Shown here in pieces: positions 6,398 through 47,412 of a stretch of 64,000 nt of DNA. The stretch comes from Fimbriimonadaceae bacterium. Its GTDB lineage: Bacteria > Armatimonadota > Fimbriimonadia > Fimbriimonadales > Fimbriimonadaceae. The notes under the pieces are model-generated. The model was not told the origin of the DNA, did not search any database, and worked only from the letters and a program-made list of their open reading frames with translations. The stretch is from positions 124,001-188,000 of the forward strand of contig JABAQM010000001.1 of NCBI GenBank assembly GCA_019187105.1, read 5' to 3'. Made by a program: the position numbers and the translations under genes. Each line of letters begins with the position of its first letter. Position 1 is the stretch's first letter.

Positions 6398-7711
6398 TTA
6401 CCCGCTGAGCTTCCAGTCAAACTCGACCATCCGGCCTGCTCCGGGAGCGGCAGGAACCCCGCTCACAAAGGCCTGAACCGGGAAACCCGTGAGTTCAACT
6501 CCTTCGTAAGGGCTCCACTGCGAGCGACTCCGAATCCACTCGCGACGGACGGTGAATTTGCGCTGCAATTCCACGATTGCCAGGTCTGCCCAGGCACCTA
6601 GCGCGATCTCGCCACGGTCCTTGATGCCGTACAGTCGGGCGGGATTGCGCGACGTCATGGTTACGACTTGGTCGAGCGGCAGCCTTCCTTGGTCCACAAA
6701 GGTGAGCAGCACGGGCAGAAGCGTTTGCACACCGGTCATCCCGCTCGGGCTTTGCGGATAAGGCTTCTGCTTCTCCTCCAGCGTGTGAGGCGCGTGGTCG
6801 GAGCCGAACACGTCGAACACACCTTCAAGGAGCCCAGCCCAGAGCGCTTCGCGGTGCTCGGCACTTCGAATAGGCGGGTTCATCTGGACGAGGCTTCCGA
6901 GCTCTCGATAAGCGCTTGGCCACTCGAACCAGAGGTGTTGCGGTGTCACTTCGGCCGTCAGGGCCACGCCTTCGGCCTTTGCTGACCTGATTATTGGCAC
7001 CTCGTCGCCCGTACTGACGTGAAGGATGTGGACATGCCTTCCCGTTTCCCGCGATAGAAGGATCAGCCTCTCTGTCGCCAGGCGTGCAGCTTCCGCGTCG
7101 CGGATGATGGGGTGGTCGGATACGTCCGGGGCGGGAAACATCTCCTTTCGAGCCCGCAGCCGAGCCTCATCCTCGGCATGAACCGGCATCGGCCGCTTTC
7201 CGCCTTGCATCACCGCTCGGACGTTCTCGTCATCGGGCACGAGCAGCGTCCCCGTCGATGAGCCCATGAAAAGCTTGATTCCCGGAGTCCCCGGCAGCAT
7301 TTCCAGCCGCTCCAGATCGGGAATATTGTCGAGGGCGGCGCCGACGAAAAACGCGTAATTCGCCGAAGCTCGGCCCTTGGCCCGGGCCAGCTTGTTTTCC
7401 AGGAAGGCTGCTGTCGTCGTCGGGGGCAGGGTGTTCGGCATCTCGAAGAACGTCGTCACCCCGCCGGCAGCGGCGGCCTCCGAACCGGTGGCGATGTCCT
7501 CCTTATGCTCAAGCCCCGGTTCGCGAAAGTGGACCTGGGTGTCGATGACCCCAGGGAGAATCTGCATCCCGGAGGCATCGAACGTGTTTTCCGCTTCGGC
7601 GCCAGTAAGATCGCCCAGGGCAACGATCCTTCCCCCTGCGATGGCGAGGTCTTCGCGGGCAATACCTTCCGGTCGAATGACCTCGCCGCCCCGGATGACC
7701 CAATCGAACAT
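6398..7711 (-). CDS. pyrC: Dihydroorotase (class I-like amidohydrolase)
   Basis: A 437-residue amidohydrolase with the dihydroorotase layout: VHFREPG (near residue 64), a metal-bridging Lys in GIKLFMGSS, VHAEDE, HILHVST and FGSDHAPHT. The enzyme cyclises carbamoyl aspartate in pyrimidine synthesis. The usual HxH of the first motif is Gln-Val-His here, so one zinc ligand is substituted; it could be a pseudo-dihydroorotase or act on another cyclic amide. Two ATGs are possible (7714, 7711). The second is chosen because a TAACGT hexamer ends six bases upstream of it. Confidence 0.85.
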   Translation of the reverse strand: MFDWVIRGGEVIRPEGIAREDLAIAGGRIVALGDLTGAEAENTFDASGMQILPGVIDTQVHFREPGLEHKEDIATGSEAAAAGGVTTFFEMPNTLPPTTTAAFLENKLARAKGRASANYAFFVGAALDNIPDLERLEMLPGTPGIKLFMGSSTGTLLVPDDENVRAVMQGGKRPMPVHAEDEARLRARKEMFPAPDVSDHPIIRDAEAARLATERLILLSRETGRHVHILHVSTGDEVPIIRSAKAEGVALTAEVTPQHLWFEWPSAYRELGSLVQMNPPIRSAEHREALWAGLLEGVFDVFGSDHAPHTLEEKQKPYPQSPSGMTGVQTLLPVLLTFVDQGRLPLDQVVTMTSRNPARLYGIKDRGEIALGAWADLAIVELQRKFTVRREWIRSRSQWSPYEGVELTGFPVQAFVSGVPAAPGAGRMVEFDWKLSG

Positions 7712-43521: not shown

Positions 43522-44409
43522 CTACCGGCCGAGACGCTTGCGCTGCCGATACCGGATGAGAATGGCCACCAGGTTGAAGCTGACGAGGACGCCGAGGAGA
43601 ACGACAATTCCCGCCGCTGCAGCCTCATGAAAGCCCTGCTGGGGGCGGCTTGTCCAGTCGAAAATCTGGATCGGCAAGACCGTGAACCGGTCCCGCACCC
43701 CGGACGGAACTTCGGCGATGTACGAAACCGCTCCGATCGCAATGAGCGGCGCAGTTTCGCCGATCGCGCGGCTAACGGCTAGGATAATCCCGGTTAGGAT
43801 TCCAGGCAATGCGTTGGGAAGGACTTGTTTGGCGATAACCTGCCACTGCGTGGCGCCCAGCGCATATGCGCCCTCACGAAAGGACCTGGGAACAGCCCGC
43901 AGTGATTCTTGCGAGACGATAATGACAACCGGCAGAATCAACAGCCCCATCGTCAGTCCGCCGGAAAGGATGGATCGATCCAGCGACATCCAGCGAACAA
44001 AGAGAGCCAAACCGAGGAGGCCGTAAACGATGGATGGCACACCCGCCAGATTGGCGATGTTCAGCTTGACAAAATCAACGAACCGATTCCTGCCCCGGGA
44101 ATACTCCTCGAGGTAGATCGCCGATGCGATACCGATTGGCACGGCAAAGAGACTGGCCACCCCGATAATCCACAGCGTGCCAAACAGCGATGCCTTGATC
44201 CCGGCGTTCTCAGGAATCCGCGACGTGAAGTTCGTAAAAAAGCTCAGGTTGACACGCGACACTCCGTCGCGAACCAGGATGTAAAGCAGGAGAATCAGGA
44301 CGGCCAGGACGAGCGCCATCGCCGCCGCGCAGACGAAGCCGAAAAGGGCGCTTTTCCGCTTGCGGCGATTGTACTGAGACGTGGACTCGAAGAACGACGC
44401 TTGAGCCAT
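43522..44409 (-). CDS. pstA: Phosphate ABC transporter permease PstA
   Basis: A 295-residue inner-membrane permease with six predicted helices, the first at about 25-47, and the cytoplasmic EAA-type loop LRAVPRSFREGAYALGATQWQV. It forms a heterodimer with PstC. It starts one base within the pstC stop codon. The family normally has pstB next; no ATPase follows here. Confidence 0.92.
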   Translation of the reverse strand: MAQASFFESTSQYNRRKRKSALFGFVCAAAMALVLAVLILLLYILVRDGVSRVNLSFFTNFTSRIPENAGIKASLFGTLWIIGVASLFAVPIGIASAIYLEEYSRGRNRFVDFVKLNIANLAGVPSIVYGLLGLALFVRWMSLDRSILSGGLTMGLLILPVVIIVSQESLRAVPRSFREGAYALGATQWQVIAKQVLPNALPGILTGIILAVSRAIGETAPLIAIGAVSYIAEVPSGVRDRFTVLPIQIFDWTSRPQQGFHEAAAAGIVVLLGVLVSFNLVAILIRYRQRKRLGR

Positions 44410-45347
44410 CAGCTGTACTCCAGCCTGAACCGTCGGACAAACCGCACGGCGAGAATATTGAGGACGAGTGTCACGATAAACAACGACACGCCAACGGCAA
44501 AAATCGAGAGATAGCTGATGCTGCCGGCGGGGGTGTCCCCTTTGCTGATCTGCACGATGAACGCCGTCATCGTCTGGATCGATTCAAGCGGGTTGAGCGT
44601 CATCTTCGGCGTCTGGCCGGCCGCAAGTGTGACGGCCATGGTCTCACCGATCGCACGGGATATTGCGATGATGAACGCGGCGCCAACGGCCGAAAGCGCG
44701 CTCGGCACGACGATCTTGGTCGTCACCTCCATCTTGGTGGCCCCCATTCCATAGGCGCCCTCGCGCAAGACTTTTGGGACCGCGCTCAGGGCATCCTCGC
44801 TCAGCGATGCAACAAGTGGCAGAATCATAATTCCGACCACAATCGCTCCAGAAAGGGCGTTAAAGATCTCCGTTTGCGGGAAGACCATGCGGATCAGCGG
44901 GGTGATGTGGATGAGGGCGAAGTAGCCGTACACGACGGTGGGAATTCCGGCGAGGAGCTCCAAGAACGGCTTCAACAGATTGCGAGCGGTTGGCGACGCG
45001 TACTCGCTAAGGTAGATCGCGCACAGCAACCCGAGAGGCAGCGCAATGATGGCCGCTCCGGCGGTGATGAGCAGCGTGCCGCACACCAGGGGCAGAACAC
45101 CGAACTTCGGGTTGCTGAAGGTCGGCGACCACTCCGTTCCGGTGAAGAACTCCTTGACACTGACCTCCGGCGACTGAAAGAACGCAATTGCCTCTCGCGT
45201 CAGGACGAAGAGGATGCCGAGAACGATGACCACTGCCATCGAAGCGCACGCAAAACAGAAGACCTTGATGGTCCCTTCGACATAGGCGCGCACACCGGGG
45301 CGTGCGCGCCAGGGATTGGTAGCGCTTTCGGCAGTTACGAGGGCCAT
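44409..45347 (-). CDS. pstC: Phosphate ABC transporter permease PstC
   Basis: A 312-residue permease with six helices; loop [22 protein letters not shown] is the EAA motif. The N-terminal extracytoplasmic loop [19 protein letters not shown] is typical of PstC. It overlaps pstS by one base and pstA by one, consistent with a tightly coupled operon. Confidence 0.92.
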
Positions 45348-46411
45348 CAGCCTTTTTCGCGACTCAGAATGTCTTCGATCTTCAGGCCAGGCTCAGCCCC
45401 GTGGAAGAGGGTCCCCGTTTTCCGCTCGGCCAGTCTCTTGAGGACCAAGTCCTTGGCAGCCTGCGGCAGTGGCACAAAGCCTGCCTCCTTGAGAATGGTG
45501 TCCGAGCCGGCAGCGAAAATGTACTTGACCATCTCCTCGATGCCGGGCTTGGACTCCAGGGACTTCTTGTTGACATAGATAAACAGGGGCCGGCTGAGCG
45601 GCGAGTAGGTTCCGTTTTGGATCGTATCAAACGAGGGAGTAACTGGACCCTTGCCGCCATCCACCGCCACCGCCGCCACAATTTCCTTGTTGTCCTCGTA
45701 ATACGAGAACCCGAAGTACCCCAACGCACCCTCGTCACCTGAAACGCCTTGAACCAGGGTGTTATCATCCTCGCTCGCCTGATAGTCGGCTCGACTCGAC
45801 TTCGACTTGCCATTCACGGCTTCCGTGAAGTAGTCAAACGTTCCGCTGTCGGTCCCAGCCCCATAAAGCTTTAAGGGCTTGTCCGGAAATCCGGAACGGA
45901 CCTCCTTCCAGTTGCTGACCTTGGAGCCTTCTTCCCACATCATCTTGAGCTCGGCGATCGTTAGGTCCTTGGCCCAGGTGTTCTTGGGGTTGACCACGAT
46001 GGTGAGGCCGTCGAAGGCAATGGGAATCTCGATGTATTCGATCCCTTTGGCTTTCGCCTGCTCGGCCTCTTCTGGCGTGATCGGCCTCGACGCATTTGAG
46101 ATATCGATTTCCCCCGCCACGAACTTCTTGAAGCCACCGCCGGTACCAGACGTGCCAACCGAGGGGCTGATAGACGAGTTGGTCTTGGTGAACTCTTCCG
46201 AGATCGCCGACATCAGCGGTTCCACGGTGCTGGATCCATCGATGATGACGTCGGCCCTGGAGCCGGCCGCAGTTCCGGTCGTCGATGTCCCACTTGTTGT
46301 TCCTGTGGAGCTCCCTCCGCTGGTCCCATTGTTCGAACCGCAACCAGCCAACACGACCCCCGCGGAGGCAAGGATTGCGAGAAAAATGACCCTCTCTGAT
46401 CGCCATCTCAT
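45347..46411 (-). CDS. pstS: Phosphate-binding lipoprotein PstS
   Basis: A 354-residue periplasmic binding lipoprotein: lipobox VVLAGC near residue 24, a Gly/Ser/Thr linker, then [32 protein letters not shown] and ISNASRPI with the phosphate-binding Ser/Thr residues, and [13 protein letters not shown]. Start: M(46411)RWRSERVIF gives a standard signal peptide; TAAACT (46423-46428 in sense) lies 11 bases upstream. An upstream ATG (46438) abuts the putative Pho box. Confidence 0.92.
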
Positions 46412-46422
46412 AAGCTGTCCGG

Positions 46423-46428
46423 AGTTTA
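46423..46428 (-). promoter_or_regulatory. Putative -10 of pstS
   Basis: TAAACT in the minus sense, 11 bases before ATG 46411 and 15 bases from the proximal Pho-box-like repeat. Confidence 0.4.
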
Positions 46429-46443
46429 CCGAAGCCATTTTTC

Positions 46444-46473
46444 CCTAACCTTGTCTTAACATTGGCCTAATTT
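46444..46473. promoter_or_regulatory. Pho-box-like triple direct repeat
   Basis: CCTAACCT (46444-46451), CTTAACAT (46455-46462) and CCTAATTT (46466-46473), each separated by three bases, give an exact 11-base period. This resembles the cyanobacterial Pho box (three PyTTAAPyPyT/A units three bases apart). It sits between pstS and the divergent riboswitch promoter, so it could control either or both. The binding regulator is not in the window. Confidence 0.6.
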
Positions 46474-46475
46474 CG

Positions 46476-46481
46476 TATACT
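46476..46481 (+). promoter_or_regulatory. Putative -10 of the riboswitch-prepilin transcript
   Basis: TATACT two bases downstream of the third Pho-like repeat. Predicted start near 46488, about ten bases before the riboswitch P1 stem. No clear -35 is present, as expected if an activator binds the repeats. Confidence 0.45.
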
Positions 46482-46499
46482 TAGTATGTAAGCGCTTGC

Positions 46500-46592
46500 C
46501 CGCAGGGGGAGCCATGAGATGGCTGAGAGTTCCCGCTCATACGGGGTGACCCCAAGAACCTGATCCGGTTAGTACCGGCGGAGGGATTGTGG
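46500..46592 (+). promoter_or_regulatory. TPP (THI-box) riboswitch
   Basis: P1 is CCGCAG (46500-46505) with TTGTGG (46587-46592). The pyrimidine-sensing half is GGGGAGCC, loop, GGCTGAGAGTTCCC with the invariant CTGAGA. P3a is CGGGGTGACCCC. The pyrophosphate-sensing half is GAACCTGATCCGGTTAGTACCGGCGGAGGGA, read in two parts, closely matching the TPP consensus. It leads into a prepilin-like gene rather than a thiamine synthesis or transport gene. Confidence 0.93.
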
Positions 46593-46596
46593 AAGG

Positions 46597-46652
46597 GACC
46601 TTCGAATGGCCTTCGCAATCAAATGCGAAAGGCACGCTTCGGAGGTCTTTTT
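46597..46652 (+). terminator. Riboswitch expression platform: terminator holding the ribosome site
   Basis: Outer stem GACCTTCG (46597-46604) with CGGAGGTC (46640-46647), eight pairs with one G-T, followed by TTTTT (46648-46652). An inner hairpin, GCCTTCGC (46609-46616) with GCGAAAGGC (46625-46633, one bulge), sits inside. The outer arm includes GGAGG (46641-46645), the ribosome site for ATG 46654, so the same stem could stop transcription or hide the ribosome site. Confidence 0.7.
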
Positions 46653-46653
46653 A

Positions 46654-47412
46654 ATGAAAATCCGAGCATTCACTCTCATCGAGCTGCTGGTTGTCATCGC
46701 GATAATCGCGATCTTGGCGGCCATTCTGTTCCCCGTCTTCGCCCAAGCCCGCGAATCCGCGAAAAAGACCCAGTGCCTGAGCAACTCCCGGCAGGTCGGT
46801 ATGGCGAACATGATGTACCTCAACGACAACGAGGGCGGAGCCCCCATCTTCTATGCGTACAACAGCCAGCCTCCGGCCGGAAAGGAAGGGCACAAGGGCG
46901 TTGAAGTACTGCTCTTTCCCTACTGCAAAGACAAGAACGTGTTTCGGAGCCCCTTGGATGTGGGCGGGCCGTACACGAACCAAGATGTCCCAGGTGCTGC
47001 AAGCTACTGGGCTGCCTACGGATCATCTTATCGCTTCACCCAGTGCATGTTCACGATAGCGGCAGGCGAGAGCAGCAGCAACAACCAGCCCTACGATTTT
47101 GATCGCCCGGTTAACGAGAGCTCGGTCGCCTATCCGGCTGAAACGCGGATCATGCGTCTGGAAATGTTTCCTTTCTTTTCCAAGGAGGTTGACAAGGACT
47201 GTGCCAGATACGGCTATGATTGTGAACCGCCTTACAACTACTATCGGAAGTGGGGTTCGACCGGTGGTTCGATGATCTTTGCGGACGGCCATGCCAAGCA
47301 CATTGCAACTGCGGGTCAGTTTGATCAGACCCGAGTCAATCCGGAAGGCAACCAATCCGGTGAGGCCAACCCCGACTCGTGGTCAGGAACCTGGTACGGC
47401 GCCTGCGACTAG
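46654..47412 (+). CDS. Prepilin-like protein with C-terminal DG motif
   Basis: A 252-residue prepilin: leader MKIRA, then [40 protein letters not shown]-type helix (here [17 protein letters not shown]), and a long beta domain ending with [12 protein letters not shown], the DG motif of the large DUF1559-like prepilin family of Planctomycetes and Armatimonadota. It carries many Cys in the C-terminal part. Controlled by the TPP riboswitch directly upstream. ATG 46654 is chosen for the prepilin leader and GGAGG nine bases upstream. Confidence 0.9.

Follow-up and report, generated by a model that had tools for sequence, protein, structure and literature searches.

The intergenic region between a pst operon and a divergently transcribed TPP-riboswitch gene carries three direct repeats, at 46444–46473 of the window (the whole 64,000-nucleotide stretch of DNA analysed), that very probably constitute a Pho box. 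Judged by its base sequence, this box is inverted relative to pstS and aimed at the prepilin-like gene behind the riboswitch. That phosphate controls the riboswitch transcript through the box appears to be the best explanation of the arrangement, and one that we place slightly on the probable side. The features concerned are the following.

43522–44409, minus strand: pst permease gene (BPD_transp_1), from a domain match
44409–45347, minus strand: pst permease gene (BPD_transp_1), from a domain match
45347–46411, or to 46438 if extended, minus strand: pstS1 (PF12849), from a domain match
46423–46428, minus strand: TAAACT within CGGTAAACTC, candidate -10 of pstS, from the family -10 element score
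46444–46451, plus strand: Pho box unit 1, CCTAACCT, from sequence and family matrix
46455–46462, plus strand: Pho box unit 2, CTTAACAT, with a perfect CTTAAC core, from sequence, pattern search and family matrix
46466–46473, plus strand: Pho box unit 3, CCTAATTT, a weak unit with the core CCTAAT, from the family matrix
46476–46481, plus strand: TATACT, candidate basal -10 of the riboswitch transcript, from sequence and comparison with relatives
46482–46487, plus strand: TAGTAT (TAN3T), candidate PhoB-dependent -10, from the family spacing
46495–46604, plus strand: TPP riboswitch aptamer (RF00059), from an Rfam covariance-model match
46592–46652, plus strand: predicted terminator hairpin and U run, the expression platform, just 5' of the prepilin start
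46654–47412, plus strand: prepilin-like protein of 252 aa (N_methyl, PF07963), from a domain match

The pst operon of the window (43522–46438) consists of pstS and two permease genes and has no adjacent pstB. The two pstB copies are found elsewhere, one at 6771–7511 of contig C1, with a GAF-domain kinase-like gene as its neighbour, and one in a second operon, porin-pst2, described below. A reading of the sequence alone had reported a triple repeat with an exact 11-base period in front of pstS, and this is indeed present, with starts at 46444, 46455 and 46466; an exact search for a version of the repeat string with altered linkers gave no match. Units of PhoB type in an 11-bp tandem direct repeat characterize Pho boxes of the PhoB/PhoP type, and 46444–46473 combines both.

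To place the repeat in its family, upstream regions of pstS orthologues were sampled from 64 relatives of the same family and order. CTTAACN5CTTAAC occurs with at most two mismatches on the pstS coding strand in 57 of them, and these 57 yield the consensus tCTTAACaattcCTTAACA, followed after 10 nt by a -10 of the TAN3T type with GG before TAN3T. In 40 of the 57, the distance from the C of unit 2 to the best -10 is 16 nt, and TAN3T spacing itself peaks at +16 (27/57), with any other spacing reaching three relatives at most. The three-repeat array exceeds chance by far. With a scoring matrix trained on the pstS promoter sites of the 57 relatives (training range 16.6–33.4), units 1 and 2 score 21.9, which is inside that range and ranks first among 127,958 window positions, while units 2 and 3 score 10.9 and rank third in the window; a score of 21.9 was reached by none of 4000 Markov sequences modelled on the same AT-rich region. 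Scans of the whole genome were pattern searches, and CTTAACN5CTTAAC with at most one mismatch gave nine matches in 3.3 Mb, including the window site and the array of the porin-pst2 operon. Most of the remaining one-mismatch sites lie inside coding sequence or not close to phosphate genes and were taken as chance.

When the whole promoter of the family (two units, spacer and GGTANNNT) is used as the pattern, the 3.3-Mb genome gives a single match with zero mismatches, at the phoB operon. This perfect Pho promoter precedes a reading frame of 373 codons with no significant Pfam family, which is followed by the best PhoB candidate (C1:1522151–1522822, minus strand), whose top NCBIfam model is PhoB with 246.5 bits, below the curated cut-off; frame and candidate together span C1:1522151–1524083. 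A Pho box about 1.25–1.35 kb upstream of phoB scores at least 13 in 13 of 22 family genomes, the present one included, and the PhoB candidate is backed by a predicted Pho box of its own. A six-unit array with 11-bp period stands ahead of a phosphate-selective porin O/P gene that is followed by pstS2, pstC2, pstA2 and pstB2. In this porin-pst2 operon (C1:227676–234678) CTTAAC units alternate with weaker ones. Among relatives, a box scoring above 17 lies about 1.5–1.9 kb upstream of a pstS2-like gene in 11 of 15, the porin having been checked in the present genome. Four TTAA-like units with 11-bp spacing at C1:1688939–1688977, between tRNA-Leu and an FAD-dependent oxidoreductase, possibly mark a further Pho target.

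The sequence-only reading would have been contradicted had the repeat failed to recur at other phosphate-regulated genes; the motif was observed directly at the phoB and porin-pst2 operons, so that its interpretation as a Pho box, now of the CTTAAC type, withstands this test. The likening to cyanobacterial boxes holds in part: the 8-bp repeats and 3-bp linkers are laid out as in the SphR box, however, the relatives are Fimbriimonadaceae (Armatimonadota), and the family to which the box belongs is not cyanobacterial.

The box is assigned to the riboswitch side because three observations favor the plus strand. The repeat shows one mismatch on the strand opposite pstS compared with five on the pstS strand, the matrix scores are 21.9 on the plus and -7.5 on the minus strand, and each of the three window units, when read towards pstS, has a G directly 3' of the TTAA core, a base that none of the 114 half-sites of the 57 relatives carries there. 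The usual arrangement of the relatives, a box on the pstS coding strand and 10–11 nt from the -10, is one that the window does not have. Here, as had been counted before, 15 bases separate unit 1 from the pstS -10 (TAAACT, 46428–46423), against a family norm of 10. This -10 is itself of the family type: GGTAAACT has been kept by pstS, and CGGTAAACTC scores highest of 127,980 window positions against the family PhoB-dependent -10 element. GTTAAG-type repeats in some relatives from another family of the order (L014, L027) were considered as a precedent for inverted boxes; their orientation is ambiguous, and they therefore give no clear support.

Towards the riboswitch, the family orientation and the distance of 10 nt to a TAN3T element are both found, through the weak unit 3 and TAGTAT, which lies at +16 from unit 3 and 10 nt past its CCTAAT core, i.e., at the canonical family spacing. 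From TAGTAT, transcription is predicted to begin near 46494, immediately at the riboswitch. Counted from the strong units 1 and 2, the canonical -10 position reads TTTCGT, and the probability of meeting TAN3T by chance at a given position is about 2.8% in this AT-rich stretch, three anchors having been examined. The hexamer TATACT, which begins two bases past unit 3, had been proposed as the -10 of the riboswitch transcript. It is a good hexamer and resembles the G-TAGAAT/G-TATAAT found at similar places before the riboswitch genes of relatives; however, canonical Pho spacing selects the adjoining TAGTAT. TATACT is 5 nt off the Pho spacing rule when counted from unit 2, and it was rejected as the PhoB-dependent -10 because of the family spacing rule and not because of hexamer quality, in which it surpasses TAGTAT. 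We infer that TATACT is a basal -10 directly beside a PhoB-dependent TAGTAT.

The aptamer matches RF00059 with 71.1 bits, the gathering score being 54.3, and is accordingly predicted to be a TPP riboswitch. Of the 50 riboswitch loci in the order, 38 have a prepilin gene after the TPP riboswitch and nine have thiC; the riboswitch-prepilin arrangement is conserved in Fimbriimonadaceae and in a second family of the order, and six aligned prepilins of such loci are 57–68% identical to that of the window. No thiC is present in this genome. ThiC is absent from 24 of 25 sampled Fimbriimonadaceae genomes, this one included, and the family f2 retains thiC, preceded by the riboswitch. The prepilin may help to acquire thiamine or a precursor. 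A literature search for TPP riboswitches of Armatimonadetes/Armatimonadota gave no publication on the subject. At the 37 other TPP-prepilin loci no Pho box was found (at least four mismatches forward and three in reverse), and a search for a genome of the same genus with this gene order gave none. Because none of the 37 carries a box, there is no conservation behind a joint use of phosphate and TPP, and such control would be peculiar to this genome, at most a feature of it and not a conserved circuit.

With its position between a divergent pair of promoters, those of pstS and of the riboswitch transcript, a single site could reach both, as the sequence-only reading had suggested. Under phosphate starvation, PhoB~P would occupy the three units and draw RNA polymerase to the plus strand, where a PhoB-dependent transcript would arise from TAGTAT, with TATACT serving as phosphate-independent -10. 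The leader RNA would then read TPP and either terminate or continue into the prepilin gene. The same box might still drive pstS, less canonically: E. coli PhoB activates only with strict spacing and misplaced sites are inert (PMC10294691), so that with a reversed box and a 15-nt gap activation of pstS is possible but not canonical. The pst1 operon would be weakly co-activated or independent, and porin-pst2 would be the strong starvation system. PhoB binding, the direction of its effect and the effect on either gene are here read from motif, strand and spacing. The fuller scheme, a two-input gate in which PhoB sets transcription of the leader, TPP sets read-through into the prepilin, and the box also serves the divergent pst operon, is a tentative proposal that we hold to be clearly less probable than phosphate control as such.

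Three other explanations deserve consideration. The box could serve pstS alone, having been flipped in this lineage and activating via GGTAAACT, with the riboswitch promoter TATACT abutting it by chance. The box does stand before pstS, as in nearly all relatives, pstS has kept its very family-like -10, and the other TPP-prepilin loci do without a Pho box; however, the orientation is opposite to that in 57 of 64 relatives, the gap is 15 instead of 10 nt, and PhoB spacing is strict, misplaced sites being inert in E. coli (PMC10294691). We regard this as unlikely. The proximity of TATACT, 2 nt past the end of unit 3, could point instead to an operator, at which PhoB bound over 46444–46473 would block TATACT and repress the riboswitch-prepilin transcript in phosphate starvation while porin-pst2 takes over; in a variant, pstS1 would be repressed, provided that its transcription begins upstream of the box. 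Because the genome has another porin-pst operon with a strong box, pst1 might be the system used when phosphate is replete. Repression is less easily squared with the placement of the array, which precedes a -10 just as the activating boxes do in the 57 relatives, or with TAGTAT at the canonical activating distance. An operator is somewhat less likely still.

Least probable of the three, with a slight chance, is that an old pst Pho box was inverted by a rearrangement and is bound by PhoB with no effect on either gene. That the arrangement is unique, inverted and not conserved would fit such a remnant, and E. coli commonly has PhoB sites that are without effect (PMC10294691); however, the score falls within the 16.6–33.4 range of the relatives' pstS boxes and indicates no decay, and the -10 elements are intact on both sides. 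Phosphate control of the riboswitch transcript is retained as the preferred reading.

For Fimbriimonadales, the analysis defines a concrete consensus of the Pho box and the geometry of its promoters, together with a PhoB candidate that has its own Pho box; to our knowledge, none of these has been described before. The window site would furthermore be an example of a Pho box redirected towards a riboswitch gene. Should joint control hold true, phosphate and thiamine status would be linked to a pilin-like protein, and a transcription factor and a riboswitch would act in series on a non-metabolic gene, which is testable. We know of no riboswitch neighbour of the Streptomyces PHO box. The latter, bound by PhoP, resembles the window site in that direct repeats of 11-nt units precede pstS, but has a different consensus (PMC7866108). 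The E. coli PhoB Pho box shares the 11-bp period and the 10 bp from the end of the box to a TAN3T -10, and differs in unit sequence, which is of the CTTAAC type in the window (PMC1906773). The cyanobacterial SphR Pho box likewise consists of three CTTAACCT-like 8-bp direct repeats with 3-bp linkers upstream of pst genes (PMC1906773); however, it belongs to another phylum, and the window repeat faces the riboswitch gene, away from pstS. Compared with the TPP riboswitch (RF00059) upstream of thiC, the window aptamer is equally canonical, but is predicted to control a prepilin-like gene.
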